A stretch of 64,000 nucleotides of DNA from Archivesica marissinica (lineage: Eukaryota; Mollusca; Bivalvia; Venerida; Vesicomyidae). Each line of letters begins with the position of its first letter. The stretch's first letter is position 1. The notes below the pieces were generated by a model that had not been told where the DNA came from, ran no database searches, and saw only the letters and a program-made list of their open reading frames with translations. The DNA lies in the NCBI GenBank assembly GCA_014843695.1, contig CM026401.1, positions 29,372,562-29,436,561 of the forward strand. Reading direction: 5' to 3'. This document shows positions 6,708 through 54,279 of this stretch, in pieces. A program made the position numbers and the translations under genes.

Positions 6708-6806
6708 ACAAAGGTCGCCGAGAAGCATTTCTCAGGTCATCAGTTAACTCCGGAGAACATACAGCTCATTCACCAATCATTGCAACATAGAATGCAGTAT
6801 CTCAGG
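6708..6806 (+). CDS. UBE4B: UBE4B exon 1 of window (Ufd2 core)
   Basis: 33 codons in phase 0, beginning TKVAEKHFSG and ending HRMQYLR. It matches the UBE4B segment with VxEKYFSG...SLQHYLE. The acceptor is ATTTCAG at 6701-6707 and the donor is AGG|GTAAGTG at 6807. It joins in phase to exon 2, where EELYKILHG continues the family pattern. The last ~25 nt and the donor are the founder of the adjoining 45-bp array, so this exon end is repeated about 36 times downstream. Confidence 0.93.
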
Positions 6807-8410
6807 GTAAGTGTACGTGTGTCATGGCAACATAGAATGCAGTATCTCTGGGTAAGTGTACGGGTGTCATGGCAACATAGAATGCAGTATCTCAGGGTAA
6901 GTGTACGTGTGTCATGGCAACATAGAATGCAGTATCTCAGGGTAAGTGTACGTGTGTCATGGCAACATAGAATGCAGTATCTCAGGGTAAGTGTACGTGT
7001 GTCATGGCAACATAGAATGCAGTATCTCAGGGTAAGTGTACGGGTGTCATGGCAACATAGAATGCAGTATCTCAGGGTAAGTGTACGTGTGTCATGGCAA
7101 CATAGAATGCAGTATCTCAGGGTAAGTGTACGGGTGTCATGGCAACATAGAATGCAGTATCTCTGGGTAAGTGTACGGGTGTCATGGCAACATAGAATGC
7201 AGTATCTCAGGGTAAGTGTACGTGTGTCATGGCAACATAGAATGCAGTATCTCAGGGTAAGTGTACGGGTGTCATGGCAACATAGAATGCAGTATCTCTG
7301 GGTAAGTGTACGGGTGTCATGGCAACATAGAATGCAGTATCTCAGGGTAAGTGTACGGGTGTCATGGCAACATAGAATGCAGTATCTCTGGGTAAGTGTA
7401 CAGGTGTCATGGCAACATAGAATGCAGTATCTCAGGGTAAGTGTACGGGTGTCATGGCAACATAGAATGCAGTATCTCTGGGTAAGTGTACGGGTGTCAT
7501 GGCAACATAGAATGCAGTATCTCAGGGTAAGTGTACAGGTGTCATGGCAACATAGAATGCAGTATCTCAGGGTAAGAGTATGTGTGTCATGGCAACATAG
7601 AATGCAGTATCTCTGGGTAAGTGTACAGGTGTCATGGCAACATAGAATGCAGTATCTCAGGGTAAGTGTACGGGTGTCATGGCAACATAGAATGCAGTAT
7701 CTCAGGGTAAGTGTACGGGTGTCATGGCAACATAGAATGCAGTATCTCTGGGTAAGTGTACGGGTGTCATGGCAACATAGAATGCAGTATCTCAGGGTAA
7801 GTGTACGGGTGTCATGGCAACATAGAATGCAGTATCTCTGGGTAAGTGTACGGGTGTCATGGCAACATAGAATGCAGTATCTCAGGGTAAGTGTACGGGT
7901 ATCATGGCAACATGAATGCAGTATCTCAGGGTAAGTGTACGGGTGTCATGGCAACATAGAATGCAGTATCTCAGGGTAAGTGTATGGGTGTCATGGCAAC
8001 ATAGAATGCAGTATCTCTGGGTAAGTGTACGGGTGTCATGGCAACATAGAATGCAGTATCTCAGGGTAAGTGTACGGGTGTCATGGCAACATAGAATGCA
8101 ATATCTCTGGGTAAGTGTATGGGTGTCATGGCAACATAGAATGCAGTATCTCTGGGTAAGTGTATGGGTGTCATGGCAACATAAAATGCAGTATCTCTAG
8201 GTAAGTGTATGGGTGTCATGGCAACATAGAATGCAGTATCTCTAGGTAAGTGTATGGGTGTCATGGCAACATAGAATACAGTATCTCGGGGTAAGTGTAT
8301 GGGTGTCATGGCTACATAGAATGCAGTATCTCTGGGTAAGTGTATGGGTGTCATGGCAACATAGAATGCAGTATCTCGGGGTAAGTGTATGGGTGTCATG
8401 GCTACATAGA
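6784..8410 (+). repeat. 45-bp array seeded on exon 1 3' end and 5' splice site
   Basis: About 36 units. Each contains GCAACATAGAATGCAGTATC, TCAGG or TCTGG, then GTAAGTGTACGGGTGTCATG. The first unit is exon 1 itself. The period equals 15 codons and the exon frame stays open to about 7911, where a one-base deletion shifts it. Distal units (after ~8100) are more diverged (GGTAAGTGTATGG). Two site variants, TCAGG|GTAAGT and TCTGG|GTAAGT, alternate irregularly. Confidence 0.95.
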
Positions 8411-8515
8411 GTTTGCCAAATATTTTCGCCAATTCACAAAGTTTAGTGCCAGTATTTGTTTAGCGCCAGTATTTGTTTTTTGTCACCATTGGTGACTGAC
8501 AGCGGGAACTCTGTA
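8411..8515 (+). repeat. Dispersed repeat R-9
   Basis: TTCGCCAATTCACAAAGTTT ... CATTGGTGACTGACAGCGGG is shared with 20418-20515. No TIR or tRNA head recognised. It directly follows the 45-bp array. Confidence 0.6.
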
Positions 8516-8611
8516 AATGTTCAGTTTTCATTACAACATAAAAAGCAGTATCGCACGGTAAAGTGTTCGGTTTTCATGACAAAAATAGAATGTAGTATCT
8601 CAAGGTGGGTG

Positions 8612-8976
8612 TATGGCCGTCCTTGAATGTTTAGTACTGTTTGGTGCTGTACAATCTGTCCTGTCCTTGAATGTTTAGTACTGTTTGGTGCTGTACAATC
8701 TGTCCCGTCCTTGAATGTTTAGTACTGTTTGGTGCTGTACAATCTGTCCTGTCCTTGAATGTTTAGTACTGTTTGGTGCTGTACAATCTGTCCTGTCCTT
8801 GAATGTTTAGTACTGTTTGGTGCTGTACAATCTGTCCCGTCCTTGAATGTTTAGTACTGTTTGGTGCTGTACAATCTGTCCCGTCCTTGAATGTTTAGTA
8901 CTGTTTGGTGCTGTACAATCTGTCCCGTCCTTGAATGTTTAGTACTGTTTGGTGCTGTACAATCTGTCCTGTCCTT
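8612..8976 (+). repeat. 44-bp array, ~8 copies
   Basis: Unit GTCCTTGAATGTTTAGTACT + GTTTGGTGCTGTACAATCTG + TCC(T/C). Units are nearly identical, differing at one C/T. Founder not recognised. Confidence 0.95.
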
Positions 8977-9147
8977 GTACAAGGAGCTCAATAGGCTGTA
9001 AGTTCGATCCCCAGTAAATATTTTTAAATGTTTTATGTTGATTTTCAAGTTTTCAAATTTCTCCATAAAGTTGCAAAACCGGTCAAAGGGCGACTAGATA
9101 TATGTTAAATCCCTGACTTCAGTGGAAGAGGAAAGGTGCTAGTTTAT

Positions 9148-11030: not shown

Positions 11031-11239
11031 CCTATGTTTTCAAATACTGCCTGTTTGCCCATATATTGCCTATTTCCCATTTATTGCCTACTCCCCCAAG
11101 CAGAATGGACATGCTCCCCCCCCCCCCCCAATTTCATTATCCCTCTCACACACAACAAAACCACATAGCAATAATGTAGTTTAATAGTATGGTTTAAGTT
11201 CATATTATCATAATCTAATATAAATGTGCTACAAAACAA

Positions 11240-11330
11240 CAGGGTCTCATTGGCCGAGTGGTTATTGTCGTTAACTTCACATCACTTGCCCCTCACCACT
11301 GTAGGGTCGAAGGGCATCCAAGGTCTTCCT
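11240..11330 (+). mobile_element. SINE-4 fragment, array founder
   Basis: Head GGCCGAGTGGTTATTGTCGT and B-box-like TGTAGGGTCGAAGG, then directly GGTCTTCCTTCCACCAATAA. Compared with intact SINE-4 (15610-15860) the middle is missing. Confidence 0.75.
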
Positions 11331-12250
11331 TCCACCAATAATAGCTGAAAATGTAGGGTCGAAGGGCATCCAAGTTCTTCCTTCCACCAATAATAGCTGT
11401 AAATGTAGGGTCGAGAGGCATCCAAGGTCTTCCTTCCACCAATAATAGCTGTAAATGTAGGGTCGAGAGGCATCCAAGGTCTTCCTTTCACCAATAATAG
11501 CTGTAAATGTAGGGTCGAGAGGCATCCAAGGTCTTCCTTTCACCAATAATAGCTGTAAATGAAATGTAGGGTTGAGAGGCATCCAAGGTCTTCCTTTCAC
11601 CAATAATAGCTGTAAATGAAATGTAGGGTTGAGAGGCATCCAAGGTCTTCCTTTCACCAATAATAGCTGTAAATGTAGGGTCGAGAGGCATCCAAGGTCT
11701 TCCTTTCACCAATAATAGCTGTAAATGAAATGTAGGGTTGAGAGGCATCCAAGGTCTTCCTACCACCAATAATAGCTGTAAATGTAGGGTCGAAGGGCAT
11801 CCAAGTTCTTCCTTCCACCAATAATAGCTGTAAATGTAGGGTCGAGAGGCATCCAAGGTCTTCCTTCCACCAATAATAGCTGAAAATGTAGGGTCGAAGG
11901 GCATCCAAGTTCTTCCTTCCACCAATAATAGCTGTAAATGTAGGGTCGAAGGGCATACAAGTTCTTCCTTCCACCAATAATAGCTGTAAATGTAGGGTCG
12001 AAGGCCATCCAAGTTCTTCCTTCCACCAATAATAGCTGTAAATGTAGGGTCGAAGGGCATCCAAGTTCTTCCTTCCACCAATAATAGCTGTAAATGTAAG
12101 GTCGAAGGGCATCCAAGTTCTTCCTTCCACCAATAATAGCTGTAAATGTAGGGTCGAAGGGCATCCAAGGTCTTCCTTCCACCAATAATAGCTTAACTGT
12201 AGGGTCGAAGGGCATCCAAGGTCTTCCTACCACCAATAATAGCTGAAAAT
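11303..12250 (+). repeat. ~52/58-bp array derived from SINE-4
   Basis: About 17 units of TGTAGGGTCGAAGGGCATCC + AAGGTCTTCCTTCCACCAAT + AATAGCTGTAAA; some carry an extra 6 bp (ATGAAA). The unit joins the SINE-4 B-box segment to its 3' segment, so it was seeded from the internally deleted copy at 11240. Confidence 0.92.
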
Positions 12251-12296
12251 GTCCATATGACATAAATTACCATTTTTTAAAATTTAGGTTTAATTA

Positions 12297-12480
12297 ACGT
12301 CGCTACCGGTTTCCCATTTGAGCGACGGGCAGTTTACCTAACAACACCTTTCCTGGGAAGGCTCCAGCGGTTAACCAGTACTTGGTGCACCAACCTCCGT
12401 AAGAAACTGCCAACTTTTTCATATAAATGACACGGTTTGAGCGGGGCTCGAACCCTTGACCATCAGAGATGATATAAATT
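12297..12480 (-). mobile_element. SINE-2 copy with the alternative 3' tail
   Basis: Reverse copy: tail CGTCGCTACCGGTTTCCCAT, then GGGCAGTTTACCTAACAAC..., head with GAGCGGGGCTCGAACCC (B box on the complement). The tail is the SINE-5-like hairpin tail, unlike the copies at 15028 and 17320. Confidence 0.8.
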
Positions 12481-12563
12481 ACCATCGCCCTAAAACAAGC
12501 AAACAATCTAGTGACCATCTCCAATGACATGCGATTAAATTGAGGACATTTCCTTACATTTAA

Positions 12564-19569: not shown

Positions 19570-19722
19570 ATAAATATGGATATAAACGTAAAATAAATAT
19601 GGATACAAACGTATAATAAATATGGATATAAACGTATAATAAATATGGATATAAACGTATAATAAATATGGATATAAACGTAAAATAAATATGGATATAA
19701 ACGTAAAATAAATATGGATATA
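19570..19722 (+). repeat. 23-bp AT-rich array after exon 7
   Basis: About 7 units of TATGGATATAAACGTATAAT + AAA, starting just past the exon 7 donor. Confidence 0.9.
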
Positions 19723-19868
19723 TTCTGGACGATCCAGCTATGGATAGTCATTCAGTTGCTCATTGTGTAATGTTGTCTTGGTTACAGGGCGATGCCGCAT
19801 GTTCTGGACGATCCAGCTACGGATAAAGTCATTCAGTTGCTCATTGTGTAATGTTGTCTTGGTTACAG
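19723..19868 (+). repeat. Tandem duplicates of exon 8 acceptor and 5' end
   Basis: An 81-bp unit: exon 8 first ~62 nt (ending CAGTTGCTCATTGTGT) plus AATGTTGTCTTGGTTACAG. There is one partial diverged copy (19723-19787) and one near-perfect copy (19788-19868) before the real exon. Acceptors ending at 19787 and 19868 are identical over the final ~19 nt. Confidence 0.92.
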
Positions 19869-20104
19869 GGTGATGCCGCATGTTCTGGACGATCCAGCTA
19901 CGGATAAAGTCATTCAGTTGCTCATTGTGTTCACGTGTTCCTCTAACTATTCAAACAACCCGTATCTCAGGGCAAAACTCGTGGAAGTCATGTTTTACTT
20001 CAACCCGAACGTGCAGCCACGCATGGAGAAAATCCACGAACGCCTCCTCTTACACGACCTATCTCGAGAACACTTGGCGCCAGCCCTCATGCAGTTCTAT
20101 ACAG
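19869..20104 (+). CDS. UBE4B: UBE4B exon 8 of window
   Basis: One base completing Gln, 78 codons, then one base. Contains SNNPYLRAKLVEVMF and NPNVQPRMEKI, matching NPYLxAKLVEVMF...NPxVQPR of the family, and ends ALMQFYT. Acceptor TTGGTTACAG at 19868, donor ACAG|GTGAGC. The acceptor and the first ~62 exon bases are also present upstream as tandem duplicates (19723-19868). The correct copy is this one because the upstream copy runs into an in-frame TAA. Confidence 0.94.
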
Positions 20105-20654: not shown

Positions 20655-20876
20655 AGCTCTTAATCACTCTCGATTTATGTTTTATAATCCTTATGCCTCT
20701 ACTTGGCTGGTTCTCATGGTGTTCTTAATCTCTACTTGGCTGGTTCTCAGTGTGTTCTTAATCACTCGATTTATGTTTTATAATCCTTATGCCTCTACTT
20801 GGCTGGTTCTCATGGTGTTCTTAATCTCTACTTGGCTGGTTCTCAGTGTGTTCTTAATCACTCTCGATTTATGTTT
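20655..20876 (+). repeat. Duplicates around the exon 9 5' end
   Basis: TTAATCACTCTCGATTTATG occurs at the left, a shortened form occurs at ~20759, and the last instance runs into exon 9. CTACTTGGCTGGTTCTCA recurs four times between. Unit about 110 bp with an internal ~35-bp repeat. Confidence 0.8.
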
Positions 20877-20953
20877 CGATATCATATCAGTATCATCTTC
20901 AAATCTATGTGGACCATTCCATCGCATCAGATTAAAATGATCGAGGAAGCAAA
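20865..20953 (+). CDS. UBE4B: UBE4B exon 9 of window (5' edge uncertain)
   Basis: The recognisable part reads RFMFRYHISIIFKSMW then SHQIKMIEEA, matching FTIRYHISTIFKSLW...MEEF of UBE4B. The donor GCAAA|GTGAGT at 20954 leaves phase 2, which fits exon 10. The 5' boundary is not resolved. Exon 8 leaves phase 1, but the only nearby AG (TTCTCAG, 20840-20846) gives a frame that stops at once, and about 10-15 residues expected between FYT and this block are not seen. The start given is the first in-frame codon I can support, not a splice site. Both ends of the exon lie in duplicated sequence. Confidence 0.75.
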
Positions 20954-23900
20954 GTGAGTATACATGGGTATTTTAAAATCTATAAATCTACATGATCCAT
21001 GCCATTACATCAGATCCAAGGAAGCAAAGTGAGTATACATGGGTATTTCAAAATCTATAAATCTACATGATCCATGCCATTACATCAGATCCAAGGCAGC
21101 AAAGTGAGTATACATGGGTATTTTAAAATCTATAAATCTACATGATCCATGCCATTACAGATCCAAGGCAGCAAAGTGAGTATACATGGGTATTTTTAAA
21201 TCTATAAATCTACATGATCCATGCCATTACATCAGATCCAAGGCAGCAAAGTGAGTATACATGGGTATTTTTAAATCTATAAATCTACGTGATCCATGCC
21301 ATTACAGATCCAAGGCAGCAAAGTGAGTATACATGGGTATTTTAAAATCTATAAATCTACATGATCCATGCCATTACCAGATCCAAGGCAGCAAAGTGAG
21401 TATACATGGGTATTTTTAAATCTACATGATCCATGCCATTACATCAGATCCAAGGCAGCAAAGTGAGTAACATGGGTATTTTAAATCTATAAATCTACAT
21501 GATCCATGCCATTACATCAGATCCAAGGCAGCAAAGTGAGTATACATGGGTATTTTTAAATCTATAAATCTACATGATCCATGCCATTACAGATCCAAGG
21601 CAGCAAAGTGAGTATACATGGGTATTTTTAAATCTATAAATCTACATGATCCATGCCATTACAGATCCAAGGCAGCAAAGTGAGTATACATGGGTATTTT
21701 TAAATCTATAAATCTACATGATCCATGCCATTACATCAGATCCAAGGAAGCAAAGTGAGTATACATGGGTATTTTTAAATCTATAAATCTACATGATCCA
21801 TGCCATTACATCAGATCCAAGGCAGCAAAGTGAGTATACATGGGTATTTTAAATCTATAAATCTACATGATCCATGCCATTACATCAGATCCAAGGAAGC
21901 AAAGTGAGTACATGTATTTTTAAATCTATAAATCTACATGATCCATGCCATTACACAGATCCAGGCAGCAAAGTGAGTATACATGGGTATTTTTAAATCT
22001 ATAAATCTACATGATCCATGCCATTACATCAGATCCAAGGCAGCAAAGTGAGTATACATGGGTATTTTTAAATCTATAAATCTACATGATCCATGCCATT
22101 ACAGATCCAAGGCAGCAAAGTGAGTATACATGGGTATTTTTAAATCTATAAATCTACATGATCCATGCCATTACAGATCCAAGGCAGCAAAGTGAGTATA
22201 CATGGGTATTTTTAAATCTATAAATCTACATGATCCATGCCATTACATCAGATCCAAGGAAGCAAAGTGAGTATACATGGGTATTTTTAAATCTATAAAT
22301 CTACGTGATCCATGCCATTACAGATCCAAGGCAGCAAAGTGAGTATACATGGGTATTTTTAAATCTTTAAATCTACGTGATCCATGCCATTACAGATCCA
22401 AGGCAGCAAAGTGAGTATACATGGGTATTTTTAAATCTATAAATCTACATGATCCATGCCATTACATCAGATCCAAGGAAGCAAAGTGAGTATACATGGG
22501 TATTTTTAAATCTATAAATCTACATGATCCATGCCATTACAGATCCAAGGCAGCAAAGTGAGTATACATGGGTATTTTTAAATCTATAAATCTACGTGAT
22601 CCATGCCATTACAGATCCAAGGCAGCAAAGTGAGTATACATGGGTATTTTTAAATCTATAAATCTACATGATCCATGCCATTACATCAGATCCAAGGAAG
22701 CAAAGTGAGTATACATGGGTATTTTTAAATCTATAAATCTACATGATCCATGCCATTACAGATCCAAGGCAGCAAAGTGAGTATACATGGGTATTTTTAA
22801 ATCTATAAATCTACGTGATCCATGCCATTACAGATCCAAGGCAGCAAAGTGAGTATACATGGGTATTTTTAAATCTATAAATCTATGTGATCCATGCCAT
22901 TACAGATCCAAGGCAGCAAAGTGAGTTTACATGGGTATTTTTAAATCTATAAATCTACATGATCCATGCCATTACATCAGATCCAAGGCAGCAAAGTGAG
23001 TATACATGGGTATTTTTAAATCTATAAATCTACATGATCCATGCCATTACATCAGATCCAAGGAAGCAAAGTGAGTATACATGGGTATTTTTAAATCTAT
23101 AAATCTACGTGATCCATGCCATTACAGATCCAAGGCAGCAAAGTGAGTATACATGGGTATTTTTAAATCTAAATCTACATGATCCATGCCATTACATCAG
23201 ATCCAAGGCAGCAAAGTGAGTATACATGGGTATTTTTAAATCTATAAATCTACATGATCCATGCCATTACAGATCCAAGGTAGCAAAGTGAGTATACATG
23301 GGTATTTTTAAATCTATAAATCTACATGATCCATGTCATTACATCAGATCCAAGGAAGCAAAGTGAGTATACATGGGTATTTTTAAATCTATAAATCTAC
23401 ATGATCCATGCCATTACATCAGATCCAAGGAAGCAAAGTGAGTATACATGGGTATTTTTAAATCTATAAATCTACATGATCCATGCCATTACAGATCCAA
23501 GGCAGCAAAGTGAGTATACATGGGTATTTTTAAATCTATAAATCTACATGATCCATGCCATTACATCAGATCCAAGGCAGCAAAGTGAGCATACATGGGT
23601 ATTTTTAAATCTATAAATCTACATGATCCATGCCATTACAGATCCAAGGCAGCAAAGTGAGTATACATGGGTATTTTTATATCTATAAATCTACATGATC
23701 CATGCCATTACATCAGATCCAAGGAAGCAAAGTGAGTATACATGGGTATTTTTAAATCTATAAATCTACATGATCCATGCCATTACAGATCCAAGGCAGC
23801 AAAGTGAGTATACATGGGTATTTTTAAATCTATAAATCTACATGATCCATGCCATTACAGATCCAAGGCAGCAAAGTGAGTATACATGGGTATTTTTAAA

Positions 23901-26900
23901 TCTATAAATCTACATGATCCATGCCATTACATCAGATCCAAGGCAGCAAAGTGAGTATACATGGGTATTTTTAAATCTATAAATCTACATGATCCATGCC
24001 ATTACATCAGATCCAAGGAAGCAAAGTGAGTATACATGGGTATTTTTAAATCTATAAATCTACATGATCCATGCCATTACAGATCCAAGGCAGCAAAGTG
24101 AGTATACATGGGTATTTTTAAATCTATAAATCTACATGATCCATGCCATTACATCAGATCCAAGGCAGCAAAGTGAGTATACATGGGTATTTTTAAATCT
24201 ATAAATCTACATGATCCATGCCATTACAGATCCAAGGCAGCAAAGTGAGTATACATGGGTATTTTTAAATCTATAAATCTACATGATCCATGCCATTACA
24301 TCAGATCCAAGGCAGCAAAGTGAGTATACATGGGTATTTTTAAATCTATAAATCTACATGATCCATGCCATTACATCAGATCCAAGGCAGCAAAGTGAGT
24401 ATACATGGGTATTTTTAAATCTATAAATCTACATGATCCATGCCATTACAGATCCAAGGCAGCAAAGTGAGTATACATGGGTATTTTTAAATCTATAAAT
24501 CTACATGATCCATGCCATTACATCAGATCCAAGGAAGCAAAGTGAGTATACATGGGTATTTTTAAATCTATAAATCTACATGATCCATGCCATTACATCA
24601 GATCCAAGGCAGCAAAGTGAGTATACATGGGTATTTTTAAATCTATAAATCTACATGATCCATGCCATTACATCAGATCCAAGGCAGCAAAGTGAGTATA
24701 CATGGGTATTTTTAAATCTATAAATCTACATGATCCATGCCATTACATCAGATCCAAGGCAGCAAAGTGAGTATACATGGGTATTTTTAAATCTATAAAT
24801 CTACATGATCCATGCCATTACATCAGATCCAAGGCAGCAAAGTGAGTATACATGGGTATTTTTAAATCTATAAATCTACATGATCCATGCCATTACATCA
24901 GATCCAAGGCAGCAAAGTGAGTATACATGGGTATTTTTAAATCTATAAATCTACATGATCCATGCCATTACATCAGATCCAAGGCAGCAAAGTGAGTATA
25001 CATGGGTATTTTTAAATCTATAAATCTACATGATCCATGCCATTACATCAGATCCAAGGCAGCAAAGTGAGTATACATGGGTATTTTTAAATCTATAAAT
25101 CTACATGATCCATGCCATTACATCAGATCCAAGGCAGCAAAGTGAGTATACATGGGTATTTTTAAATCTATAAATCTACATGATCCATGCCATTACAGAT
25201 CCAAGGCAGCAAAGTGAGTATACATGGGTATTTTTAAATCTATAAATCTACATGATCCATGCCATTACATATCCAAGGCAGCAAAGTGAGTATACATGGG
25301 TATTTTTAAATCTATAAATCTACGTGATCCATGCCATTACAGATCCAAGGCAGCAAAGTGAGTATACATGGGTATTTTTAAATCTATAAATCTACATGAT
25401 CCATGCCATTACATCAGATCCAAGGAAGCAAAGTGAGTATACATGGGTATTTTTAAATCTATAAATCTACGTGATCCATGCCATTACAGATCCAAGGCAG
25501 CAAAGTGAGTATACATGGGTATTTTTAAATCTGTAAATCTACGTGATCCATGCCATTACAGATCCAAGGCAGCAAAGTGAGTATACATGGGTATTTTTAA
25601 ATCTATAAATCTACATGATCCATGCCATTACATCAGATCCAAGGAAGCAAAGTGAGTATACATGGGTATTTTTAAATCTATAAATCTACGTGATCCATGC
25701 CATTACAGATCCAAGGCAGCAAAGTGAGTATACATGGGTATTTTTAAATCTGTAAATCTACGTGATCCATGCCATTACAGATCCAAGGCAGCAAAGTGAG
25801 TATACATGGGTATTTTTAAATCTATAAATCTACATGATCCATGCCATTACATCAGATCCAAGGAAGCAAAGTGAGTATACATGGGTATTTTTAAATCTAT
25901 AAATCTACATGATCCATGCCATTACAGATCCAAGGCAGCAAAGTGAGTATACATGGGTATTTTTAAATCTATAAATCTACGTGATCCATGCCATTACAGA
26001 TCCAAGGCAGCAAAGTGAGTATACATGGGTATTTTTAAATCTATAAATCTACATGATCCATGCCATTACAGATCCAAGGCAGCAAAGTGAGTATACATGG
26101 GTATTTTTAAATCTATAAATCTACATGATCCATGCCATTACATCAGATCCAAGGCAGCAAAGTGAGTATACATGGGTATTTTTAAATCTATAAATCTACA
26201 TGATCCATGCCATTACATCAGATCCAAGGAAGCAAAGTGAGTATACATGGGTATTTTTAAATCTATAAATCTACATGATCCATGCCATTACAGATCCAAG
26301 GCAGCAAAGTGAGTATACATGGGTATTTTTAAATCTATAAATCTACATGATCCATGCCATTACATCAGATCCAAGGCAGCAAAGTGAGTATACATGGGTA
26401 TTTTTAAATCTATAAATCTACATGATCCATGCCATTACATCAGATCCAAGGCAGCAAAGTGAGTATACATGGGTATTTTTAAATCTATAAATCTACATGA
26501 TCCATGCCATTACAGATCCAAGGTAGCAAAGTGAGTATACATGGGTATTTTTAAATCTATAAATCTACATGATCCATGTCATTACATCAGATCCAAGGAA
26601 GCAAAGTGAGTATACATGGGTATTTTTAAATCTATAAATCTACATGATCCATGCCATTACATCAGATCCAAGGCAGCAAAGTGAGTATACATGGGTATTT
26701 TTAAATCTATAAATCTACATGATCCATGCCATTACAGATCCAAGGCAGCAAAGTGAGTATACATGGGTATTTTTAAATCTATAAATCTACATGATCCATG
26801 CCATTACATCAGATCCAAGGAAGCAAAGTGAGTATACATGGGTATTTTTAAATCTATAAATCTACATGATCCATGCCATTACAGATCCAAGGTAGCAAAG

Positions 26901-29900
26901 TGAGTATACATGGGTATTTTTAAATCTATAAATCTACATGATCCATGCCATTACATCAGATCCAAGGCAGCAAAGTGAGCATACATGGGTATTTTTAAAT
27001 CTATAAATCTACATGATCCATGCCATTACAGATCCAAGGCAGCAAAGTGAGTATACATGGGTATTTTTATATCTATAAATCTACATGATCCATGCCATTA
27101 CATCAGATCCAAGGAAGCAAAGTGAGTATACATGGGTATTTTTAAATCTATAAATCTACATGATCCATGCCATTACAGATCCAAGGCAGCAAAGTGAGTA
27201 TACATGGGTATTTTTAAATCTATAAATCTACATGATCCATGCCATTACAGATCCAAGGTAGCAAAGTGAGTATACATGGGTATTTTTAAATCTATAAATC
27301 TACATGATCCATGCCATTACATCAGATCCAAGGCAGCAAAGTGAGCATACATGGGTATTTTTAAATCTATAAATCTACATGATCCATGCCATTACAGATC
27401 CAAGGCAGCAAAGTGAGTATACATGGGTATTTTTATATCTATAAATCTACATGATCCATGCCATTACATCAGATCCAAGGAAGCAAAGTGAGTATACATG
27501 GGTATTTTTAAATCTATAAATCTACATGATCCATGCCATTACAGATCCAAGGCAGCAAAGTGAGTATACATGGGTATTTTTAAATCTACAACCACCAACA
27601 CAACCAACAAAAAACAATTTAAAATCTACATGATCCATGCCATTACAGATCCAAGGCAGCAAAGTGAGTATACATGGGTATTTTTAAATCTATAAATCTA
27701 CATGATCCATGCCATTACATCAGATCCAAGGAAGCAAAGTGAGTATACATGGGTATTTTTAAATCTATAAATCTACGTGATCCATGCCATTACAGATCCA
27801 AGGCAGCAAAGTGAGTATACATGGGTATTTTTAAATCTGTAAATCTACGTGATCCATGCCATTACAGATCCAAGGCAGCAATGTGAGTATACATGGGTAT
27901 TTTTAAATCTATAAATCTACATGATCCATGCCATTACATCAGATCCAAGGAAGCAAAGTGAGTATACATGGGTATTTTTAAATCTATAAATCTACATGAT
28001 CCATGCCATTACAGATCCAAGGCAGCAAAGTGAGTATACATGGGTATTTTTAAATCTATAAATCTACGTGATCCATGCCATTACAGATCCAAGGCAGCAA
28101 AGTGAGTATACATGGGTATTTTTAAATCTATAAATCTACATGATCCATGCCATTACATCAGATCCAAGGAAGCAAAGTGAGTATACATGGGTATTTTTAA
28201 ATCTATAAATCTACATGATCCATGCCATTACAGATCCAAGGCAGCAAAGTGAGTATACATGGGTATTTTTAAATCTATAAATCTACGTGATCCATGCCAT
28301 TACAGATCCAAGGCAGCAAAGTGAGTATACATGGGTATTTTTAAATCTATAAATCTATGTGATCCATGCCATTACAGATCCAAGGCAGCAAAGTGAGTTT
28401 ACATGGGTATTTTTAAATCTATAAATCTACATGATCCATGCCATTACATCAGATCCAAGGCAGCAAAGTGAGTATACATGGGTATTTTTAAATCTATAAA
28501 TCTACATGATCCATGCCATTACATCAGATCCAAGGAAGCAAAGTGAGTATACATGGGTATTTTTAAATCTATAAATCTACGTGATCCATGCCATTACAGA
28601 TCCAAGGCAGCAAAGTGAGTATACATGGGTATTTTTAAATCTAAATCTACATGATCCATGCCATTACATCAGATCCAAGGCAGCAAAGTGAGTATACATG
28701 GGTATTTTTAAATCTATAAATCTACATGATCCATGCCATTACAGATCCAAGGTAGCAAAGTGAGTATACATGGGTATTTTTAAATCTATAAATCTACATG
28801 ATCCATGTCATTACATCAGATCCAAGGAAGCAAAGTGAGTATACATGGGTATTTTTAAATCTATAAATCTACATGATCCATGCCATTACATCAGATCCAA
28901 GGCAGCAAAGTGAGTATACATGGGTATTTTTAAATCTATAAATCTACATGATCCATGCCATTACAGATCCAAGGCAGCAAAGTGAGTATACATGGGTATT
29001 TTTAAATCTATAAATCTACATGATCCATGCCATTACATCAGATCCAAGGAAGCAAAGTGAGTATACATGGGTATTTTTAAATCTATAAATCTACATGATC
29101 CATGCCATTACAGATCCAAGGTAGCAAAGTGAGTATACATGGGTATTTTTAAATCTACATGATCCATGCCATTACATCAGATCCAAGGCAGCAAAGTGAG
29201 CATACATGGGTATTTTTAAATCTACATGATCCATGCCATTACAGATCCAAGGCAGCAAAGTGAGTATACATGGGTATTTTTATATCTATAAATCTACATG
29301 ATCCATGCCATTACATCAGATCCAAGGAAGCAAAGTGAGTATACATGGGTATTTTTAAATCTACATGATCCATGCCATTACAGATCCAAGGCAGCAAAGT
29401 GAGTATACATGGGTATTTTTAAATCTATAAATCTACATGATCCATGCCATTACATCAGATCCAAGGAAGCAAAGTGAGTATACATGGGTATTTTTAAATC
29501 TATAAATCTACATGATCCATGCCATTACAGATCCAAGGCAGCAAAGTGAGTATACATGGGTATTTTAAATCTATAAATCTACATGATCCATGCCATTACA
29601 GATCCAAGGCAGCAAAGTGAGTATACATGGGTATTTTTAAATCTATAAATCTACATGATCCATGCCATTACATCAGATCCAAGGCAGCAAAGTGAGTATA
29701 CATGGGTATTTTAAATCTATAAATCTACATGATCCATGCCATTACATCAGATCCAAGGCAGCAAAGTGAGTATACATGGGTATTTTTAAATCTATAAATC
29801 TACATGATCCATGCCATTACATCAGATCCAAGGCAGCAAAGTGAGTATACATGGGTATTTTTAAATCTATAAATCTACGTGATCCATGCCATTACATCAG

Positions 29901-32900
29901 ATCCAAGGCAGCAAAGTGAGTATACATGGGTATTTTTAAATCTATAATCTACATGATCCATGCCATTACATCAGATCCAAGGCAGCAAAGTGAGTATACA
30001 TGGGTATTTTTAAATCTATAAATCTACATGATCCATGCCATTACAGATCCAAGGCAGCAAAGTGAGTATACATGGGTATTTTTAAATCTATAAATCTACA
30101 TGATCCATGCCATTACATATCCAAGGCAGCAAAGTGAGTATACATGGGTATTTTTAAATCTATAAATCTACGTGATCCATGCCATTACAGATCCAAGGCA
30201 GCAAAGTGAGTATACATGGGTATTTTTAAATCTATAAATCTACATGATCCATGCCATTACATCAGATCCAAGGAAGCAAAGTGAGTATACATGGGTATTT
30301 TTAAATCTATAAATCTACGTGATCCATGCCATTACAGATCCAAGGCAGCAAAGTGAGTATACATGGGTATTTTTAAATCTGTAAATCTACGTGATCCATG
30401 CCATTACAGATCCAAGGCAGCAAAGTGAGTATACATGGGTATTTTTAAATCTATAAATCTACATGATCCATGCCATTACATCAGATCCAAGGAAGCAAAG
30501 TGAGTATACATGGGTATTTTTAAATCTATAAATCTACATGATCCATGCCATTACAGATCCAAGGCAGCAAAGTGAGTATACATGGGTATTTTTAAATCTA
30601 TAAATCTACGTGATCCATGCCATTACAGATCCAAGGCAGCAAAGTGAGTATACATGGGTATTTTTAAATCTATAAATCTACATGATCCATGCCATTACAT
30701 CAGATCCAAGGAAGCAAAGTGAGTATACATGGGTATTTTTAAATCTATAAATCTACATGATCCATGCCATTACAGATCCAAGGCAGCAAAGTGAGTATAC
30801 ATGGGTATTTTTAAATCTATAAATCTACGTGATCCATGCCATTACAGATCCAAGGCAGCAAAGTGAGTATACATGGGTATTTTTAAATCTATAAATCTAC
30901 GTGATCCATGCCATTACAGATCCAAGGCAGCAAAGTGAGTTTACATGGGTATTTTTAAATCTATAAATCTACATGATCCATGCCATTACATCAGATCCAA
31001 GGCAGCAAAGTGAGTATACATGGGTATTTTTAAATCTATAAATCTACATGATCCATGCCATTACATCAGATCCAAGGAAGCAAAGTGAGTATACATGGGT
31101 ATTTTTAAATCTATAAATCTACATGATCCATGCCATTACAGATCCAAGGCAGCAAAGTGAGTATACATGGGTATTTTTAAATCTATAAATCTACGTGATC
31201 CATGTCATTACATCAGATCCAAGGCAGCAAAGTGAGTATACATGGGTATTTTTAAATCTAAATCTACATGATCCATGCCATTACATCAGATCCAAGGCAG
31301 CAAAGTGAGTATACATGGGTATTTTTAAATCTATAAATCTACATGATCCATGCCATTACAGATCCAAGGTAGCAAAGTGAGTATACATGGGTATTTTTAA
31401 ATCTATAAATCTACATGATCCATGTCATTACATCAGATCCAAGGAAGCAAAGTGAGTATACATGGGTATTTTTAAATCTATAAATCTACATGATCCATGC
31501 CATTACATCAGATCCAAGGCAGCAAAGTGAGTATACATGGGTATTTTTAAATCTATAAATATACATGATCCATGCCATTACAGATCCAAGGCAGCAAAGT
31601 GAGTATACATGAGTATTTTTAAATCTATAAATCTACATGATCCATGCCATTACATCAGATCCAAGGAAGCAAAGTGAGTATACATGGGTATTTTTAAATC
31701 TATAAATCTACATGATCCATGCCATTACAGATCCAAGGTAGCAAAGTGAGTATACATGGGTATTTTTAAATCTATAAATCTACATGATCCATGCCATTAC
31801 ATCAGATCCAAGGCAGCAAAGTGAGCATACATGGGTATTTTTAAATCTATAAATCTACATGATCCATGCCATTACAGATCCAAGGCAGCAAAGTGAGTAT
31901 ACATGGGTATTTTTATATCTATAAATCTACATGATCCATGCCATTACATCAGATCCAAGGAAGCAAAGTGAGTATACATGGGTATTTTTAAATCTATAAA
32001 TCTACATGATCCATGCCATTACAGATCCAAGGCAGCAAAGTGAGTATACATGGGTATTTTTAAATCTATAAATCTACATGATCCATGCCATTACATCAGA
32101 TCCAAGGAAGCAAAGTGAGTATACATGGGTATTTTTAAATCTATAAATCTACATGATCCATGCCATTACAGATCCAAGGCAGCAAAGTGAGTATACATGG
32201 GTATTTTTAAATCTATAAATCTACATGATCCATGCCATTACAGATCCAAGGCAGCAAAGTGAGTATACATGGGTATTTTTAAATCTATAAATCTACATGA
32301 TCCATGCCATTACATCAGATCCAAGGCAGCAAAGTGAGTATACATGGGTATTTTTAAATCTATAAATCTACATGATCCATGCCATTACATCAGATCCAAG
32401 GCAGCAAAGTGAGTATACATGGGTATTTTTAAATCTATAAATCTACATGATCCATGCCATTACATCAGATCCAAGGAAGCAAAGTGAGTATACATGGGTA
32501 TTTTTAAATCTATAAATCTACATGATCCATGCCATTACATCAGATCCAAGGCGGCAAAGTGAGTATACATGGGTATTTTTAAATCTATAAATCTACATGA
32601 TCCATGCCATTACAGATCCAAGGCAGCAAAGTGAGTATACATGGGTATTTTTAAATCTATAAATCTACATGATCCATGCCATTACATATCCAAGGAAGCA
32701 AAGTGAGTATACATGGGTATTTTTAAATCTATAAATCTACGTGATCCATGCCATTACAGATCCAAGGCAGCAAAGTGAGTTTACATGGGTATTTTTAAAT
32801 CTAAATCTACGTGATCCATGCCATTACAGATCCAAGGCAGCAAAGTGAGTATACATGGGTATTTTTAAATCTATAAATCTACATGATCCATGCCATTACA

Positions 32901-33735
32901 TCAGATCCAAGGAAGCAAAGTGAGTATACATGGGTATTTTTAAATCTATAAATCTACGTGATCCATGCCATTACAGATCCAAGGCAGCAAAGTGAGTATA
33001 CATGGGTATTTTTAAATCTGTAAATCTACGTGATCCATGCCATTACAGATCCAAGGCAGCAAAGTGAGTATACATGGGTATTTTTAAATCTATAAATCTA
33101 CATGATCCATGCCATTACATCAGATCCAAGGAAGCAAAGTGAGTATACCTGGGTATTTTTAAATCTATAAATCTACATGATCCATGCCATTACAGATCCA
33201 AGGCAGCAAAGTGAGTATACATGGGTATTTTTAAATCTATAAATCTACATGATCCATGCCATTACATCAGATCCAAGGAAGCAAAGTGAGTATACATGGG
33301 TATTTTTAAATCTATAAATCTACATGATCCATGCCATTACAGATCCAAGGCAGCAAAGTGAGTATACATGGGTATTTTTAAATCTATAAATCTACGTGAT
33401 CCATGCCATTACAGATCCAAGGCAGCAAAGTGAGTATACATGGGTATTTTTAAATCTATAAATCTATGTGATCCATGCCATTACAGATCCAAGGCAGCAA
33501 AGTGAGTTTACATGGGTATTTTTAAATCTATAAATCTACATGATCCATGCCATTACATCAGATCCAAGGCAGCAAAGTGAGTATACATGGGTATTTTTAA
33601 ATCTATAAATCTACATGATCCATGCCATTACATCAGATCCAAGGCAGCAAAGTGAGTATACATGGGTATTTTTAAATCTATAAATCTACATGATCCATGC
33701 CATTACCGGTACATTAGATCCAAGGATGCAAAGTG
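20903..33735 (+). repeat. 72/75-bp array seeded on exon 9 3' end and 5' splice site
   Basis: About 170 units over 12.8 kb. Unit: ATCTACATGATCCATGCCAT + TAC(ATC)AGATCCAAGG + CAGCAAA, then donor-like GTGAGTATACATGGGTATTT + TTAAATCTATAA. The first unit is exon 9 itself (AAATCTATGTGGACCATTCC ... GAAGCAAA|GTGAGT). Variants (GGAAGC/GGCAGC, ATG/GTG, TTTATATC, TGAGTTTAC) recur in the same order over kilobases. A unique 40-bp interruption sits at 27587-27625. Confidence 0.96.
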
Positions 33736-34205: not shown

Positions 34206-35013
34206 TTTAACAACTAAATTAGTAAAGGGAGACAATTTAATTTGTATGTAGGCACAGGGCAGTGAGACTATCGGCAAAGGGAGACAATTTAATTTGTATG
34301 TAGGCACAGGGCAGTGAGACTATCGGCAAAGGGAGACAATTTAATTTGTATGTAGGCACAGGGCAGTGAGACTATCGGCAAAGGGAGACAATTTAATTTG
34401 TATGTAGGCACAGGGCAGTGAGACTATCGGCAAAGGGAGACAATTTAATTTGTATGTAGGCACAGGGCAGTGAGACTATCGGCAAAGGGAGACAATTTAA
34501 TTTGTATGTAGGCACAGGGCAGTGAGACTATCGGCAAAGGGAGACAATTTAATTTGTATGTAGGCACAGGGCAGTGAGACTATCGGCAAAGGGAGACAAT
34601 TTAATTTGTATGTAGGCACAGGGCAGTGAGACTATCGGCAAAGGGAGACAATTTAATTTGTATGTAGGCACAGGGCAGTGAGACTATCGGCAAAGGGAGA
34701 CAATTTAATTTGTATGTAGGCACAGGGCAGTGAGACTATCGGCAAAGGGAGACAATTTAATTTGTATGTAGGCACAGGGCAGTGAGACTATCGGCAAAGG
34801 GAGACAATTTAATTTGTATGTAGGCACAGGGCAGTGAGACTATCGGCAAAGGGAGACAATTTGACTCGTATGTCAATAAATGTAGACAATTTAATTAATA
34901 CATCAGCAAAGGGAGACAATTGTAAAGGGAAACAATTCAATTACTGTGCCAGTAAAGGGAGGACAATTTGTCTGTTATATGAGTAAAGGGAGACAATTTA
35001 ACTTTTATTTCAG
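34206..35013 (+). repeat. 52-bp array seeded on exon 10 start and 3' splice site
   Basis: About 12 near-identical units (34206-34866): GTAGGCACAGGGCAGTGAGA + CTATCGGCAAAGGGAGACAA + TTTAATTTGTAT. Then 4-5 increasingly diverged ones up to the exon. The core CAGTAAAGGGAAACAGTTTG of the acceptor and exon 10 (GKQF codons) is recognisable in each as C(G/A)GCAAAGGGAGACAATTT. Confidence 0.85.
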
Positions 35014-35158
35014 TAAAGGGAAACAGTTTGTCAAGTTTGTTAACATGTTGATGAATGACACGACGTTTCTCCTCGACGAGAGTTTAGACTGTCTCAAGAG
35101 AATACATGAAGTCCAGGATGAAATGGCCAACACAGAGGAATGGAACAAAAAATCCAGT
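35014..35158 (+). CDS. UBE4B: UBE4B exon 10 of window
   Basis: One base completing Asn, then 48 codons: [20 protein letters not shown], then [17 protein letters not shown], ending EEWNKKSS. This is one of the most conserved UBE4B blocks ([24 protein letters not shown]). Acceptor TTTATTTCAG, donor AGT|GTAAGC. The exon start and its acceptor are the apparent founder of the upstream 52-bp array. Confidence 0.96.
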
Positions 35159-40358: not shown

Positions 40359-40493
40359 GAACAGCAGAGAGTGCAGCAGCAACAGCTGTCAACGGACGAG
40401 AAACAGTGTAGATCATACCTCACCCTAGCAACCGAAACCGTGGACATGTTTCACTACCTTACAGACAAAATACAGACACCTTTCCTCATTCCT
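40359..40493 (+). CDS. UBE4B: UBE4B exon 11 of window
   Basis: 45 codons, phase 0 at both ends, [20 protein letters not shown] to [20 protein letters not shown] matches the family's [11 protein letters not shown]. Acceptor TTTCACTTTAG behind a run of 12 T, donor CCT|GTAAGT. Its 3' part and donor are repeated twice in the first 200 bp of the following intron. A SINE-3 copy ends only 40 nt before the acceptor. Confidence 0.95.
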
Positions 40494-40692
40494 GTAAGTC
40501 CCCCTGGCAACAGAAATAGTGTAGATCATACCTCACCCTAGCAACCGAAAATGTATACATGTTTCACTACCTTACAGACAAAATACAGACACCTGTCCTT
40601 ATTCCTGTAAGTCCCCCGGCAACAGAAATAGTGTAGATTATACCTCACTCTAGCAACCGAAACCGTGGACATGTTTCACTACCTTGCAGACA
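40494..40692 (+). repeat. Two tandem partial copies of exon 11 3' end plus donor
   Basis: Period ~113 bp. Copy 2 (to ~40606) repeats GTGTAGATCATACCTCACCC ... CTGTCCTTATTCCT|GTAAGTC; copy 3 stops within the exon-derived part (CTACCTTGCAGACAAATTG). Reading on from exon 11 into copy 2 meets a TAG. Confidence 0.92.
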
Positions 40693-40948
40693 AATTGATC
40701 TAAAAACACAAAAAACTTGTTGGAAAAAGTTTGGAAAATGACGTACCTAACCTAATTATAACATGAAATAACCTTGAAAATTTGAACAATCATAAAATAA
40801 TATAATTTTGCAAAATTTTGACTAGTTTTATATAAATTTCGCAGGTACTCTCGCCCATTTTTTACCCTTTTCTGACAAGATCAATTTTCACCTTTAGCTT
40901 ATTTGATTTTCCCCCATCACTGTCGTTCAACCGGAATATGTTTTATAG

Positions 40949-51254: not shown

Positions 51255-51429
51255 AGATCATACCGGAAGGCGTTGTTCGATGACGCCTTGATAAGAATAC
51301 GACGAGCGTGTATTAAAACTGAGAGGGAAATAGAGAAGTTCAAATCCATGCAGGACAAGGTCGACGAAATTGTGATACAGAAAGCGAGAGAGGAGAGGGA
51401 CTATGGAGAAATTCCAGATGAATTTAGAG
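51255..51429 (+). CDS. UBE4B: UBE4B exon 13 of window
   Basis: 58 codons plus one base: RSYRKALFDDALIRIRRACI, IEKFKSMQDKVDEIV, ending YGEIPDEFR. Matches RSYSKELFE...IEKF...PDEFRDPLMD. A lysine- and glutamate-rich helix precedes the U-box linker. Acceptor TTTTAAACAG, donor AGAG|GTACCG. The final ~22 nt and donor found the 57-bp array that follows. Confidence 0.95.
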
Positions 51430-52215
51430 GTACCGTATTAACATGTGTATTATACATATACGGATAAATTCCAGATGAATTTAGACGTACCGTATTAACA
51501 TGTGTATTATACATATACGGATAAATTCCAGATGAATTTAGACGTACCGTATTAACATGTGTATTATACATATACGGATAAATTCCAGATGAATTTAGAC
51601 GTACCGTATTAACATGTGTATTATACATATACGGATAAATTCCAGATGAATTTAGACGTACCGTATTAACATGTGTATTATACATATATGGAGAAATTCC
51701 AGATGAATTTAGAGGTACCGTATTAACATGTGTATTATACATATACGGATAAATTCCAGATGAATTTAGACGTACCGTATTAACATGTGTATTATACATA
51801 TACGGATAAATTCCAGATGAATTTAGACATACCGTATTAACATGTGTATTATACATATACGGATAAATTCCAGATGAATTTAGACGTACCGTATTAACAT
51901 GTGTATTATACATATACGGATAAATTCCAGATGAATTTAGACGTACCGTATTAACATGTGTATTATACATATACGGATAAATTCCAGATGAATTTAGACG
52001 TACCGTATAACATGTGTATTATACATATACGGATAAATTCCAGATGAATTTAGACGTACCGTATTAACATGTGTATTATACATATACGGATAAATTCCAG
52101 ATGAATTTAGACGTACCGTATTAACATGTGTATTATACATATACGGATAAATTCCAGATGAATTTAGAGGTACCGTATTAACATGTGTATTATACATATA
52201 CAGATCAATTCCAGA
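51401..52215 (+). repeat. 57-bp array seeded on exon 13 3' end and 5' splice site
   Basis: About 14 units: AAATTCCAGATGAATTTAGA + (C/G)GTACCGTATTAACATGTG + TATTATACATATACGGAT. The first unit is exon 13's GAAATTCCAGATGAATTTAGAG|GTACCG region. The copies at ~51690 and ~52168 keep the exon-like AGAGGTACC; most read AGACGTACC. Most copies read TAA where the exon has GAA. Degenerate units follow to ~52310. Confidence 0.95.
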
Positions 52216-52479
52216 TGAATTTAAAGATACTGTATTGCCCTGTGAATACAGCTTATATGGGTAAATTCAAGATCAATTTCGATGTACCGGTGTACGAATA
52301 AATTCCACATTAATTTTTGTTGTGTATTTTATTGATCAGAAATAGCCTTCTCCTAGTTGTGGAAATGTTGCACCCAGACTGCACACTGCCTCACTAAACA
52401 TAAATTTGTCTGACTGGAGGTTTGGAGGACACATGTTTTAATACACTACATGATATCAAAAGCAATTTTTCCCCTGTAA

Positions 52480-53050
52480 ATAGTGGAACTTGTACTTATT
52501 GTAATTAACCGGACTGTTACTTTGGAAATAGTGGAACTTGTTCTTGTTGTAATTAACCGGACTGGTACTTTGGAAATAGTGGAACTAGTACTTGTTGTAA
52601 TTAACTGGACTGGTACTTGGGAAATAGTGGAACTAGTACTTGTTGTAATTAACCGGACTGTTACTTTGGAAATAGTGGAACTTGTACTTGTTGTAATTAA
52701 CCGGACTGGTACTTGGGAAATAGTGGAACTTGTACTTGTTGTAATTAACCAGACTGGTACTTTGGAAATAGTGGAACTTGTACTTGTTGTAATTAACCGG
52801 ACTGGTACTTGGGAAATAGTGGAACTTGTACTTGTTGTAATTAACCAGACTGGTACTTTGGAAACAGTGGAACTTGTACTTGTAATTAACCGGACTGGTT
52901 CTTTGGAAATAGTGGAACTTGTACTTGTAATTAACCGGACTGGTTCTTTGGAAATAGTGGAACTTGTACTTGTTGTAATTAACCAGACTGGTACTTTGGA
53001 AACAGTGGAACTTGTACTTGTAATTAACCGGACTGGTTCTTTGGAAATAT
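52480..53050 (+). repeat. 48/45-bp array, ~12 copies
   Basis: Unit GTAATTAACCGGACTGGTAC + TTTGGAAATAGTGGAACTTG + TACTTGTT, some lacking GTT. Both strands are open because periods are multiples of three. Confidence 0.95.
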
Positions 53051-53082
53051 TCATTTTTAAAGACGTTTATCCATTACAATCC

Positions 53083-54270
53083 ATCAGTTCTCCGGTATAA
53101 TCCATCAGTTCTCCGGTACAATCCATCATTTCTCCGGTACAATCCATCAGTTGTCCGGTACAATCCATCATTTCTCCGGTACAATCCATCAGTTGTCCGG
53201 CGGTACAATGCATCAGTTCTCCGGTACAATCCATCAGTTCTCTGGTACAATCCATCAGTTCTCTGGTACAATCCATCATTTCTCCGGTACAATCCATCAG
53301 TTCTCCGGTACAATCCATCATTTCTCCCGTACAATCCATCATTTCTCCCGTACAATCCATCATTTCTCCCGTACAATCCATCATTTCTCCGGTACAATCC
53401 ATCATTTCTCCCGTACAATCCATCAGTTCTCCGGTACAATCCATCAGTTCTCCGGTACAATCCATCATTTCTCCCATACAATCCATCAATTCTCTTGTAC
53501 AATCCATCAGTTCTCCCGTACAATCCATCAGTTCTCCCGTACAATCCATCAGTCCTCCGGTACAATCCATCATTTCTCCTGTACAATCCATCAGTTCTCC
53601 GGTACAATCCATCATTTCTCCTGTACAATCCATCAGTTCTCCTGTACAATCCATCAGTTCTCCGGTACAATCCATCAGTTCTCCGGTACAATTCATCAGT
53701 TCTCCTGTACAATCCATCAGTTCTCCGGTACAATCCATCAGTTCTCCGGTACAATCCATCAGTTCTCCGGTACAATCCATCATTTCTCCTGTACAATCCA
53801 TCAGTTCTCCGGTACAATCCATCATTTCTCCGGTACAATCCATCATTTCTCCGGTACAATCCATCAGTTCTCCGGTACAATCCATCATTTCTCCCGTACA
53901 ATCCATCATTTCTCCGGTACAATCCATCAGTTCTCCTGTACAATCCATCATTTCTCCGGTACAATCCATCAGTTCTCCGGTACAATCCATCTGTTCTCCG
54001 GTACAATCCATCATTTCTCCGGTACAATCCATCATTTCTCCGGTACAATCCATCAGTTCTCCTGTACAATCCATCATTTCTCCTGTACAATCCATCAGTT
54101 CTCCGGTACAATCCATCATTTCTCCGGTACAATCCATCATTTCTCCGGTACAATCCATCATTTCTCCCGTACAATCCATCATTTCTCTGGTACAATCCAT
54201 CATTTCTCCGGTACAATCCATCAGTTCTCCCGTACAATCCATCATTTCTCTGGTACAATCCATCAGTTCA
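53083..54270 (+). repeat. 21-bp array abutting the U-box exon acceptor
   Basis: About 57 units of TCAGTTCTCCGGTACAATCC + A, with CAG/CATT and GG/CC/CT variants. The last unit passes into TCAGTTCACCATTGCAG, the acceptor of exon 14. The + strand frame across it is open and in frame with the U-box. Confidence 0.96.
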
Positions 54271-54279
54271 CCATTGCAG

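Follow-up and report, generated by a model that had tools for sequence, protein, structure and literature searches.

Minisatellites across exon–intron boundaries in UBE4B and other genes of the bivalve Archivesica marissinica

Introduction

Minisatellites that span exon–intron boundaries, referred to as "mirage" minisatellites, have been described for lancelets, gene by gene in the reports drawn on here. In amphioxus they are found in Adh3, the globin genes BflGb6 and BflGb9, PGBD5 and TnC (PMC3087553, PMC3902484), and RT-PCR data from this animal suggest that splicing is regular despite the repeats (PMC3087553). The amphioxus arrays and those of the clam discussed below share tandem units that extend across the boundary, at both donors and acceptors, and in both the AG or GT is often kept (PMC3087553, PMC3902484). 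As described in the relevant parts of these reports, the BflGb6 arrays are short, with 6 and 3 repeat units in two haplotypes, 150–160 bp each, and the units in Adh3 measure 10–72 bp and show somatic length instability. Mirages are further characterized by units restricted to their locus and by concerted evolution that leaves out the copies at the boundary. The clam, in contrast to this cephalochordate, is a bivalve, harbors up to 173 extra copies across 12.8 kb, and displays such arrays at seven edges of one gene.

Human genes in segmental duplications contain internal tandem repeats that resemble the clam minisatellites in being located on exon–intron boundaries and that are able to alter splicing (PMC2812944). 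They were identified from differences in repeat number between recent paralogues and are linked to novel introns as well as to alternative transcripts; unlike in the present analysis, array density is not compared in the parts of that study considered here (PMC2812944). A related model, proposed by Rogers, is intron gain by a tandem duplication that carries AG/GT signals (described in PMC3087553). In this type of gain, as outlined there, an intron arises anew within an exon, whereas in the clam existing borders are duplicated, with copies that apparently remain intronic. Zhuo et al. are said to have described, in 2007, human introns that originate from tandem arrays.

Results

Gene model

The window, i.e., the whole stretch of 64,000 nucleotides that was analyzed, contains 15 exons of a bivalve UBE4B gene, which form a clean GT-AG model with a spliced reading frame that is open except for one gap, at the start of exon 9. 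The best named relative is Mercenaria mercenaria (85% identity across 97% of the draft). In total, 28 splice edges could be located in the window. The exons at which boundary-spanning arrays were found are

6708..6806, + strand, exon e1 of UBE4B, not the first exon of the gene (gene model, tblastn)
19869..20104, + strand, exon e8 (gene model)
20879..20953, + strand, exon e9, truncated, lacking in the window its acceptor and first ~50 nt (tblastn, gene model, reading of the second assembled copy)
35014..35158, + strand, exon e10 (gene model)
40359..40493, + strand, exon e11 (gene model)
51255..51429, + strand, exon e13 (gene model)

Arrays that span exon–intron boundaries

A scan of all 28 edges placed six of them, i.e., the donors of e1, e9, e11 and e13 and the acceptors of e8 and e10, within tandem arrays whose unit is composed of exon, splice site and intron:

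6777..8410, + strand, 45-bp array on the e1 donor, 30 nt of exon and 15 nt of intron beginning GTAAGT
19723..19930, + strand, 81-bp array on the e8 acceptor, about 20 nt of intron end with AG and about 61 nt of exon, 2.6 copies
20944..33706, + strand, 72/75-bp array on the e9 donor, 12.8 kb, 173 extra copies, GT kept in all
34224..35032, + strand, 52-bp array with degenerate ~30-bp copies on the e10 acceptor, exon start TAAAGGGAAACA
40399..40694, + strand, 113-bp array on the e11 donor, 95 nt of exon and 18 nt of intron beginning GTAAGT, 2.6 copies
51405..52289, + strand, 57-bp array on the e13 donor, 14 extra copies, GT kept in 12

Alignment yielded 37 extra copies at e1, the last two of which, reaching to about 8610, are degenerate, as well as one each at e8 and e11 and 18 at e10, where AG is kept in 4. 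The unit lengths at these six edges agree with those given in the sequence-only reading. That reading had counted about seven of some 30 edges; the scan gives exactly six of 28, i.e., the six edges named there without the 5' side of exon 9. Its description of introns that each contain tens to hundreds of duplicate splice sites applies to introns 1 and 9, where all 37 and 173 copies keep GT, and to intron 13 (12 of 14), but not to e8, e11 or e10. The proposal that the arrays originate from independent events is consistent with what was found: the units are unrelated, they differ in length, and the two units that were searched in the genome are listed at their own locus only.

Arrays that adjoin an edge and the acceptor of exon 9

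Three further arrays are located next to splice edges:

19570..19722, + strand, 23-bp array, starting about 12 nt past the e7 donor, adjoining without crossing
53075..54269, + strand, 21-bp array, ending about 10 nt ahead of the e14 acceptor, adjoining without crossing
20658..20876, + strand, 96-bp array 5' of exon 9

The sequence-only reading had also given the 5' side of exon 9 as duplicated, which was not confirmed. The acceptor and first ~50 nt of this exon were not found in the window by tblastn. A second assembled copy, located upstream, does contain them, and its sequence reads as similar to the 96-bp unit up to about 10 nt before the acceptor. The array thus only adjoins the acceptor, and a duplicated 5' edge was rejected. 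A contig of 17 kb located upstream repeats positions 11126–20876 of the window at 99.6% and the following array at 95%. The e9 array differs between the two copies, possibly from assembly error, and the assembly is doubtful at exon 9. Gaps of 1000 N are found within the window.

Divergence of the copies and locus specificity

In the vicinity of the splice site, the copy attached to the exon departs from the consensus at 2 of 45 positions in e1, 2 of 50 in e9 and 1 of 52 in e13, and the most distal copies of the same arrays carry 12–17 differences. Farther away from this site, the similarity between exon 9 and the array copies amounts to only about 82%, which indicates that the exon is not being homogenized there.

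Two of the six units in the window, those of e1 and e9, were searched in 1.54 Gb of sequence with a search that skips very common words. All 16 matches listed for e1 fall at its own locus, and all 102 listed for e9 at its own locus or the second assembled copy, with one of three candidate places unscored. Within these bounds, a dispersed or transposon-borne repeat was rejected as the source of the two units.

Splice signals and reading frame

In 14 arrays, GT is kept in 276 of 293 decoy donor copies, 210 of which are from e1 and e9; averaged per array, this retention is about equal to that of neighboring dinucleotides. Most decoy donors are lost in two arrays, L056 (1 of 10 kept) and L071 (0 of 2). 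One frame is open through 408 codons of exon e1 and its array. Read-through past the e9, e11 and e13 donors encounters a stop within about 15 codons, and the unit lengths of 52 and 113 bp are not divisible by 3.

Comparison with chance and with other genes

Tandem arrays make up 40–63% of the genic sequence sampled (a share of 0.62 in the window, 0.40 in 29 kinesin loci, and 0.47 and 0.63 in two UBE4A-like regions). The six edges in the window compare with 1.5–2.0 expected from array placement (P 0.004–0.008) and with 2.9 from an alignment-based estimate, i.e., the count in UBE4B is above chance, about 2–4 times the expectation, in a gene that was selected post hoc. With one edge upstream of the window, UBE4B has seven such edges in total; 7 of its 34 edges compare with 10 of 161 in the rest sampled by then (Fisher P 0.014).

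The kinesin sample comprised 68 of 125 match rows: the first 30 less one duplicate, 40 further ones less two duplicates, and L053, chosen for the repeats already visible in the table. For every kinesin edge, the expected rate was derived from the first batch of loci only. Edges in batches 2–4 were picked by script, without hand correction; a few look misplaced. Splice edges that coincide with the ends of the kinesin domain, the L034 and L035 donors, and the duplicate rows C2063:10601, C18:61495215 and C18:61453085 were dropped or moved prior to the count, and edges in L025, L033, L045, L052 and regions A and B were reassigned.

A boundary within the tandem unit, as in a mirage, was found at 12 of 176 edges outside the window, as compared to 6 of 28 inside it. 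For the outside edges, 7.1–10.4 were expected from array density, with a P value that shifts strongly, between 0.06 and 0.35, with the choice of unit length; the smallest period gives 1.7 times the expectation (P 0.06) and, for donors, P 0.008. The proposed test of overlap between arrays and edges, run on this sample, thus does not establish splice junctions as preferred seeds. Donors outside the window were found in arrays at 9 of 83 edges (3.3–4.9 expected) and acceptors at 3 of 93 (3.8–5.5 expected). Overall, boundaries of both kinds are duplicated, 13 of 97 donors versus 5 of 107 acceptors (Fisher P 0.046). Among the kinesins, none of the first 49 edges was within an array (3.1 expected), as compared to 8 of the next 72.

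Results at earlier stages were 14 of 132 versus 12.4 expected (8 of 104 versus 9.5 without the window) in a first, uncurated alignment-based test, and 9 of 130 versus 7.5 in a curated TRF test prior to the extra kinesin exons. A count that contained these exons, retained the duplicate rows and took the smallest period as the unit gave 17 of 195 versus 8.3 (P 0.005), or 11 of 167 versus 6.7 (P 0.08) without the window. Copies seen by alignment only are present at three or four further outside edges (donor 5165 of region A, the L031 acceptor, the L064 donor and the L075 acceptor). Junction arrays are found on other chromosome-scale contigs as well, in the two UBE4A-like genes and several kinesins. 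The myosin locus L054 was rejected as a mirage; it contains three distinct exons that each carry splice sites of their own and are presumably mutually exclusive.

Discussion

The clam mirages probably reflect ordinary minisatellite turnover in an array-crowded genome, where the founding unit happened to take in an exon–intron border. A founder would arise, like any other array here, through slippage during replication or through a short unequal exchange, and subsequent unequal exchange or conversion may lengthen and homogenize the array. Such a duplication would be close to neutral because the exon-attached site presumably keeps being spliced and, assuming normal splicing, the other copies would be treated as intron. 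Founder positions may be set mostly by chance and array density, possibly with a filter by which downstream decoy donors are tolerated better than upstream decoy acceptors. Observations in favor of ordinary turnover are the six unrelated junction units, the exon-attached copies near consensus with decayed distal copies, the two searched units listed at their own locus only, the array-rich genic sequence, the outside count of 12 against 7.1–10.4 expected, the retention of GT, the spliced frame that is open apart from the exon 9 gap, and the RT-PCR data from amphioxus; counted against it are the excess in UBE4B, the smallest-period P values, the 82% similarity in exon 9, and the loss of decoy donors at L056 and L071.

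Outside the window, about one 5' splice site in nine is found within an array of its own copies, and acceptors about three times less often. A tentative interpretation is that duplication starts preferentially at donors or, alternatively, that decoy acceptors are eliminated, in the latter case because an upstream AG would capture splicing and downstream decoy donors would be ignored. Donors alone may be favored, considering the 9 of 83.

It is rather doubtful that tandem duplication begins preferentially at splice junctions, or at donors only, e.g., due to breaks, stalled forks or RNA-DNA hybrids at the borders. The excess in UBE4B, that of outside donors, the difference between donors and acceptors, and the edges with alignment-only copies are consistent with such a preference, but the outside edges taken together (12 against 7–10 expected) do not establish a general one, the first 49 kinesin edges gave none, the alignment-based count outside the window (edges not yet curated) was below expectation, acceptors are at or below theirs, and the choice of unit length moves P strongly. 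Alternatively, but improbably, arrays may form uniformly and survive unequally, if selection holds the exon-attached copy, which would re-seed the array so that junction arrays outlast intronic ones. The gradient in e1, e9 and e13, from near consensus at the exon end to decayed at the far end, fits such survival; the diverged part of exon 9 does not, and acceptors should have been favored along with donors. That the arrays are adaptive, with decoy sites that control splicing or serve as a source of new introns or protein repeats, is very improbable: the open frame of e1 and the alternative introns that similar repeats yield in human genes, as described in part of PMC2812944, would be compatible with a role, but read-through at the other donors soon meets a stop, two unit lengths break the frame, and splice-site dinucleotides are not clearly better kept than their neighbors. 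Assembly artefact is a most unlikely explanation of the arrays, as the gaps, the repeated upstream contig and the absence of the exon 9 edge from one of two copies are outweighed by scattered substitutions between copies, decayed distal copies and similar arrays on other contigs.

New here are the lineage, a bivalve, the scale of up to 12.8 kb, and the frequency, roughly 1 splice edge in 15. The occurrence in UBE4B as well as in two UBE4A-like genes and several kinesins suggests that the mirages are a general by-product of high minisatellite turnover. Such introns confront the spliceosome with up to dozens or hundreds of donors that are nearly identical, so that natural variation could serve to test both splice-site choice and the birth of introns. 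If one of the two readings of the difference between donors and acceptors holds, this genome would be a natural experiment in splice-site choice, with up to hundreds of near-identical sites.

Gene and tandem arrays in the window

The gene in the window (C16:29372562-29436561, where C16 denotes contig CM026401.1, in an assembly of 1.54 Gb) was identified by translation and comparison with relatives as the C-terminal part of UBE4B, encoded on the + strand. The spliced model is composed of 15 exons (e1-e15, where e1 is not the first exon of the gene) with GT-AG borders and a single open frame, except at the start of exon 9. The named top matches are from Mercenaria, Dreissena, Mactra and Mya, which are heterodont bivalves; of the named relatives, Mercenaria mercenaria is nearest (85% identity). 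TRF reported 49 tandem-array rows in the 64-kb window, and arrays account for a fraction of 0.62 of its bases. A 291-bp element at 15014-15619 is present as a tandem pair, and a tRNA-like stretch was called within it (15321-15413); in view of this stretch, and of related peptides found again at 17433 and 58435, the element is possibly a tRNA-derived SINE.

Arrays that span splice junctions

For each of the 28 splice edges (donors or acceptors) that could be located, the 40 nt to its left and right were compared with the whole window, which revealed tandem copies across the junction at six edges.

Junction-spanning arrays in UBE4B, with copy numbers obtained by alignment
e1 donor: 37 copies
e9 donor: 173 copies
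e11 donor: 1 copy
e13 donor: 14 copies
e8 acceptor: 1 copy
e10 acceptor: 18 copies

The scan showed no junction-spanning tandem copies at the remaining 22 edges, of which two (e7 donor, e14 acceptor) border on an array without being crossed by it. Tandem repeats across exon-intron borders are known in amphioxus as mirages (PMC3087553, PMC3902484), which the clam UBE4B arrays resemble in this respect, and repeats at exon-intron boundaries are described in human duplicated genes (PMC2812944); among the titles and abstract openings listed for the open-licence literature, no mirage report was found for a bivalve or other mollusc. The kind of repeat itself is already known, while its occurrence in this lineage is without a report found. 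The mirages of UBE4B are a real and striking set.

About seven duplicated edges had been counted in the sequence-only reading, of which the six listed here were recovered. The other, the 5' side of exon 9, was not. The window does not contain the exon 9 acceptor and the first ~50 nt of the exon (around 20860-20880). An upstream contig between two 1000-N gaps (C16:29349316-29366735) repeats exons 3-9 and window 11126-27588, and is the only one of the two assembled copies with a complete exon 9; the window is therefore defective at this acceptor, either in assembly or as an allele (misassembly or a deletion allele). In the upstream contig, the similarity of a 96-bp unit ends ~10 nt before the acceptor. 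This contig is 99.64% identical to window 11126-20876 and 95% identical within the e9 array. The 33 differences outside that array comprise 8 substitutions and 25 gaps, each of 1-2 nt, and 27 of them fall in repeats. The contig is probably the same haplotype assembled twice.

Probable origin, decay and presumed splicing of the copies

In a genome search, the matches listed for the e1 unit (16) were all at the window locus, and those listed for the e9 unit (102, with one of three candidate places unscored) were all at the window locus or its second assembled copy; both units therefore seem to have arisen in place. Around the splice site, the exon-attached copies of the e1, e9 and e13 arrays stay close to the array consensus (differing at 2/45, 2/50 and 1/52 positions), while the copies at the far end have decayed, with 12-17 differences. 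For e9, intron makes up most of the stretch compared, and deeper in the exon the similarity to the copies is only ~82%.

Among decoys, i.e., array copies other than the exon-attached site, GT is kept in 276/293 donors from 14 arrays (210 of these from e1 and e9), with low retention in two kinesin arrays (L056, 1/10; L071, 0/2). AG is kept in 17/34 decoy acceptors; of the 17 that lost it, 14 belong to the e10 array and three to the kinesin locus L053. A single reading frame of 408 codons, encoding a 15-residue repeat, stays open through the e1 exon and its array (window 6708-7931); read-through of the e9, e11 and e13 donors meets stops soon after the exon. Normal splicing presumably uses the exon-attached site.

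Splice edges outside the window

To estimate chance overlap in UBE4B, each array was collapsed to one unit, which reduces the gene from 49 kb to ~14.6 kb, and founders were placed at random. Between 1.8 and 2.0 arrays on an edge are expected, and at least six were obtained in 0.4-0.8% of trials; a second estimate gave 1.5 and an alignment-based one 2.9. UBE4B does show an excess, but that excess was the reason for selecting the gene.

The outside sample was composed of six upstream UBE4B edges, two genes that we infer to be UBE4A-like (24 and 23 edges; regions A and B) and kinesin exons located by profile search of the same genome.

Junction-spanning arrays outside the window
Upstream UBE4B, exon at C16:29369012: donor covered by a 109-bp unit
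UBE4A-like gene, U-box exon: donor covered by a 43-bp unit
Second UBE4A-like gene: donor B:8587 covered by an array
Kinesin L053 (C6:90883900-90885700), 485-1162: six 113-bp copies, each comprising the acceptor plus 86 exonic nt
Further kinesin loci: L056, L066, L070 (both edges), L071, L079, L084, L088
By alignment only: L031, L064, L075, donor A:5165

The 86 nt in the L053 unit encode the nucleotide-binding P-loop, and AG is lost in 3/6 copies. Most of the upstream UBE4B intron (C16:29369012-29369540) is made up of a 109-bp unit that copies the end of the exon before it together with the donor. L054 (C5:100288900-100290300) harbors three myosin exons that resemble one another and have separate splice sites, like mutually exclusive exons. 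At C18:61.44-61.51 Mb near-identical kinesin exons are found twice, ~50 kb apart, which is either a recent duplication or another stretch assembled doubly.

In a first round, 3/102 curated outside edges were in arrays (5.75 expected); further kinesin batches gave 5/39 and then 2/24, and batches 2-4 without duplicate rows gave 8/72 (2/37 acceptors, 6/35 donors). An intermediate count of 17/195 (8.3 expected, P 0.005; smallest period, duplicates and window included) owes its excess largely to the window. The outside total, which includes L053 (1/2 edges), a locus chosen because its repeats had already been seen, is 12/176 vs 7.1 expected (P 0.06) with the smallest period as unit and 10.4 (P 0.35) with the best-scoring period. 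A general preference of tandem duplication for starting at splice junctions, as had been proposed from the sequence, is therefore not established.

Donors and acceptors

Over all sampled edges, 13/97 donors vs 5/107 acceptors were in arrays (Fisher P 0.046; leaving out the window gives 0.070, and leaving out L053 as well gives 0.026). Outside the window, the figures were 9/83 donors (3.3-4.9 expected, P 0.008-0.06) and 3/93 acceptors (3.8-5.5 expected). Because this asymmetry came to light post hoc, in a small set that includes related genes, it is a lead. Decoy donors, sitting downstream of the true donor, may be ignored, while decoy acceptors, sitting upstream of the true acceptor, would be encountered first. 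What deserves testing is a preference or filter confined to donors.
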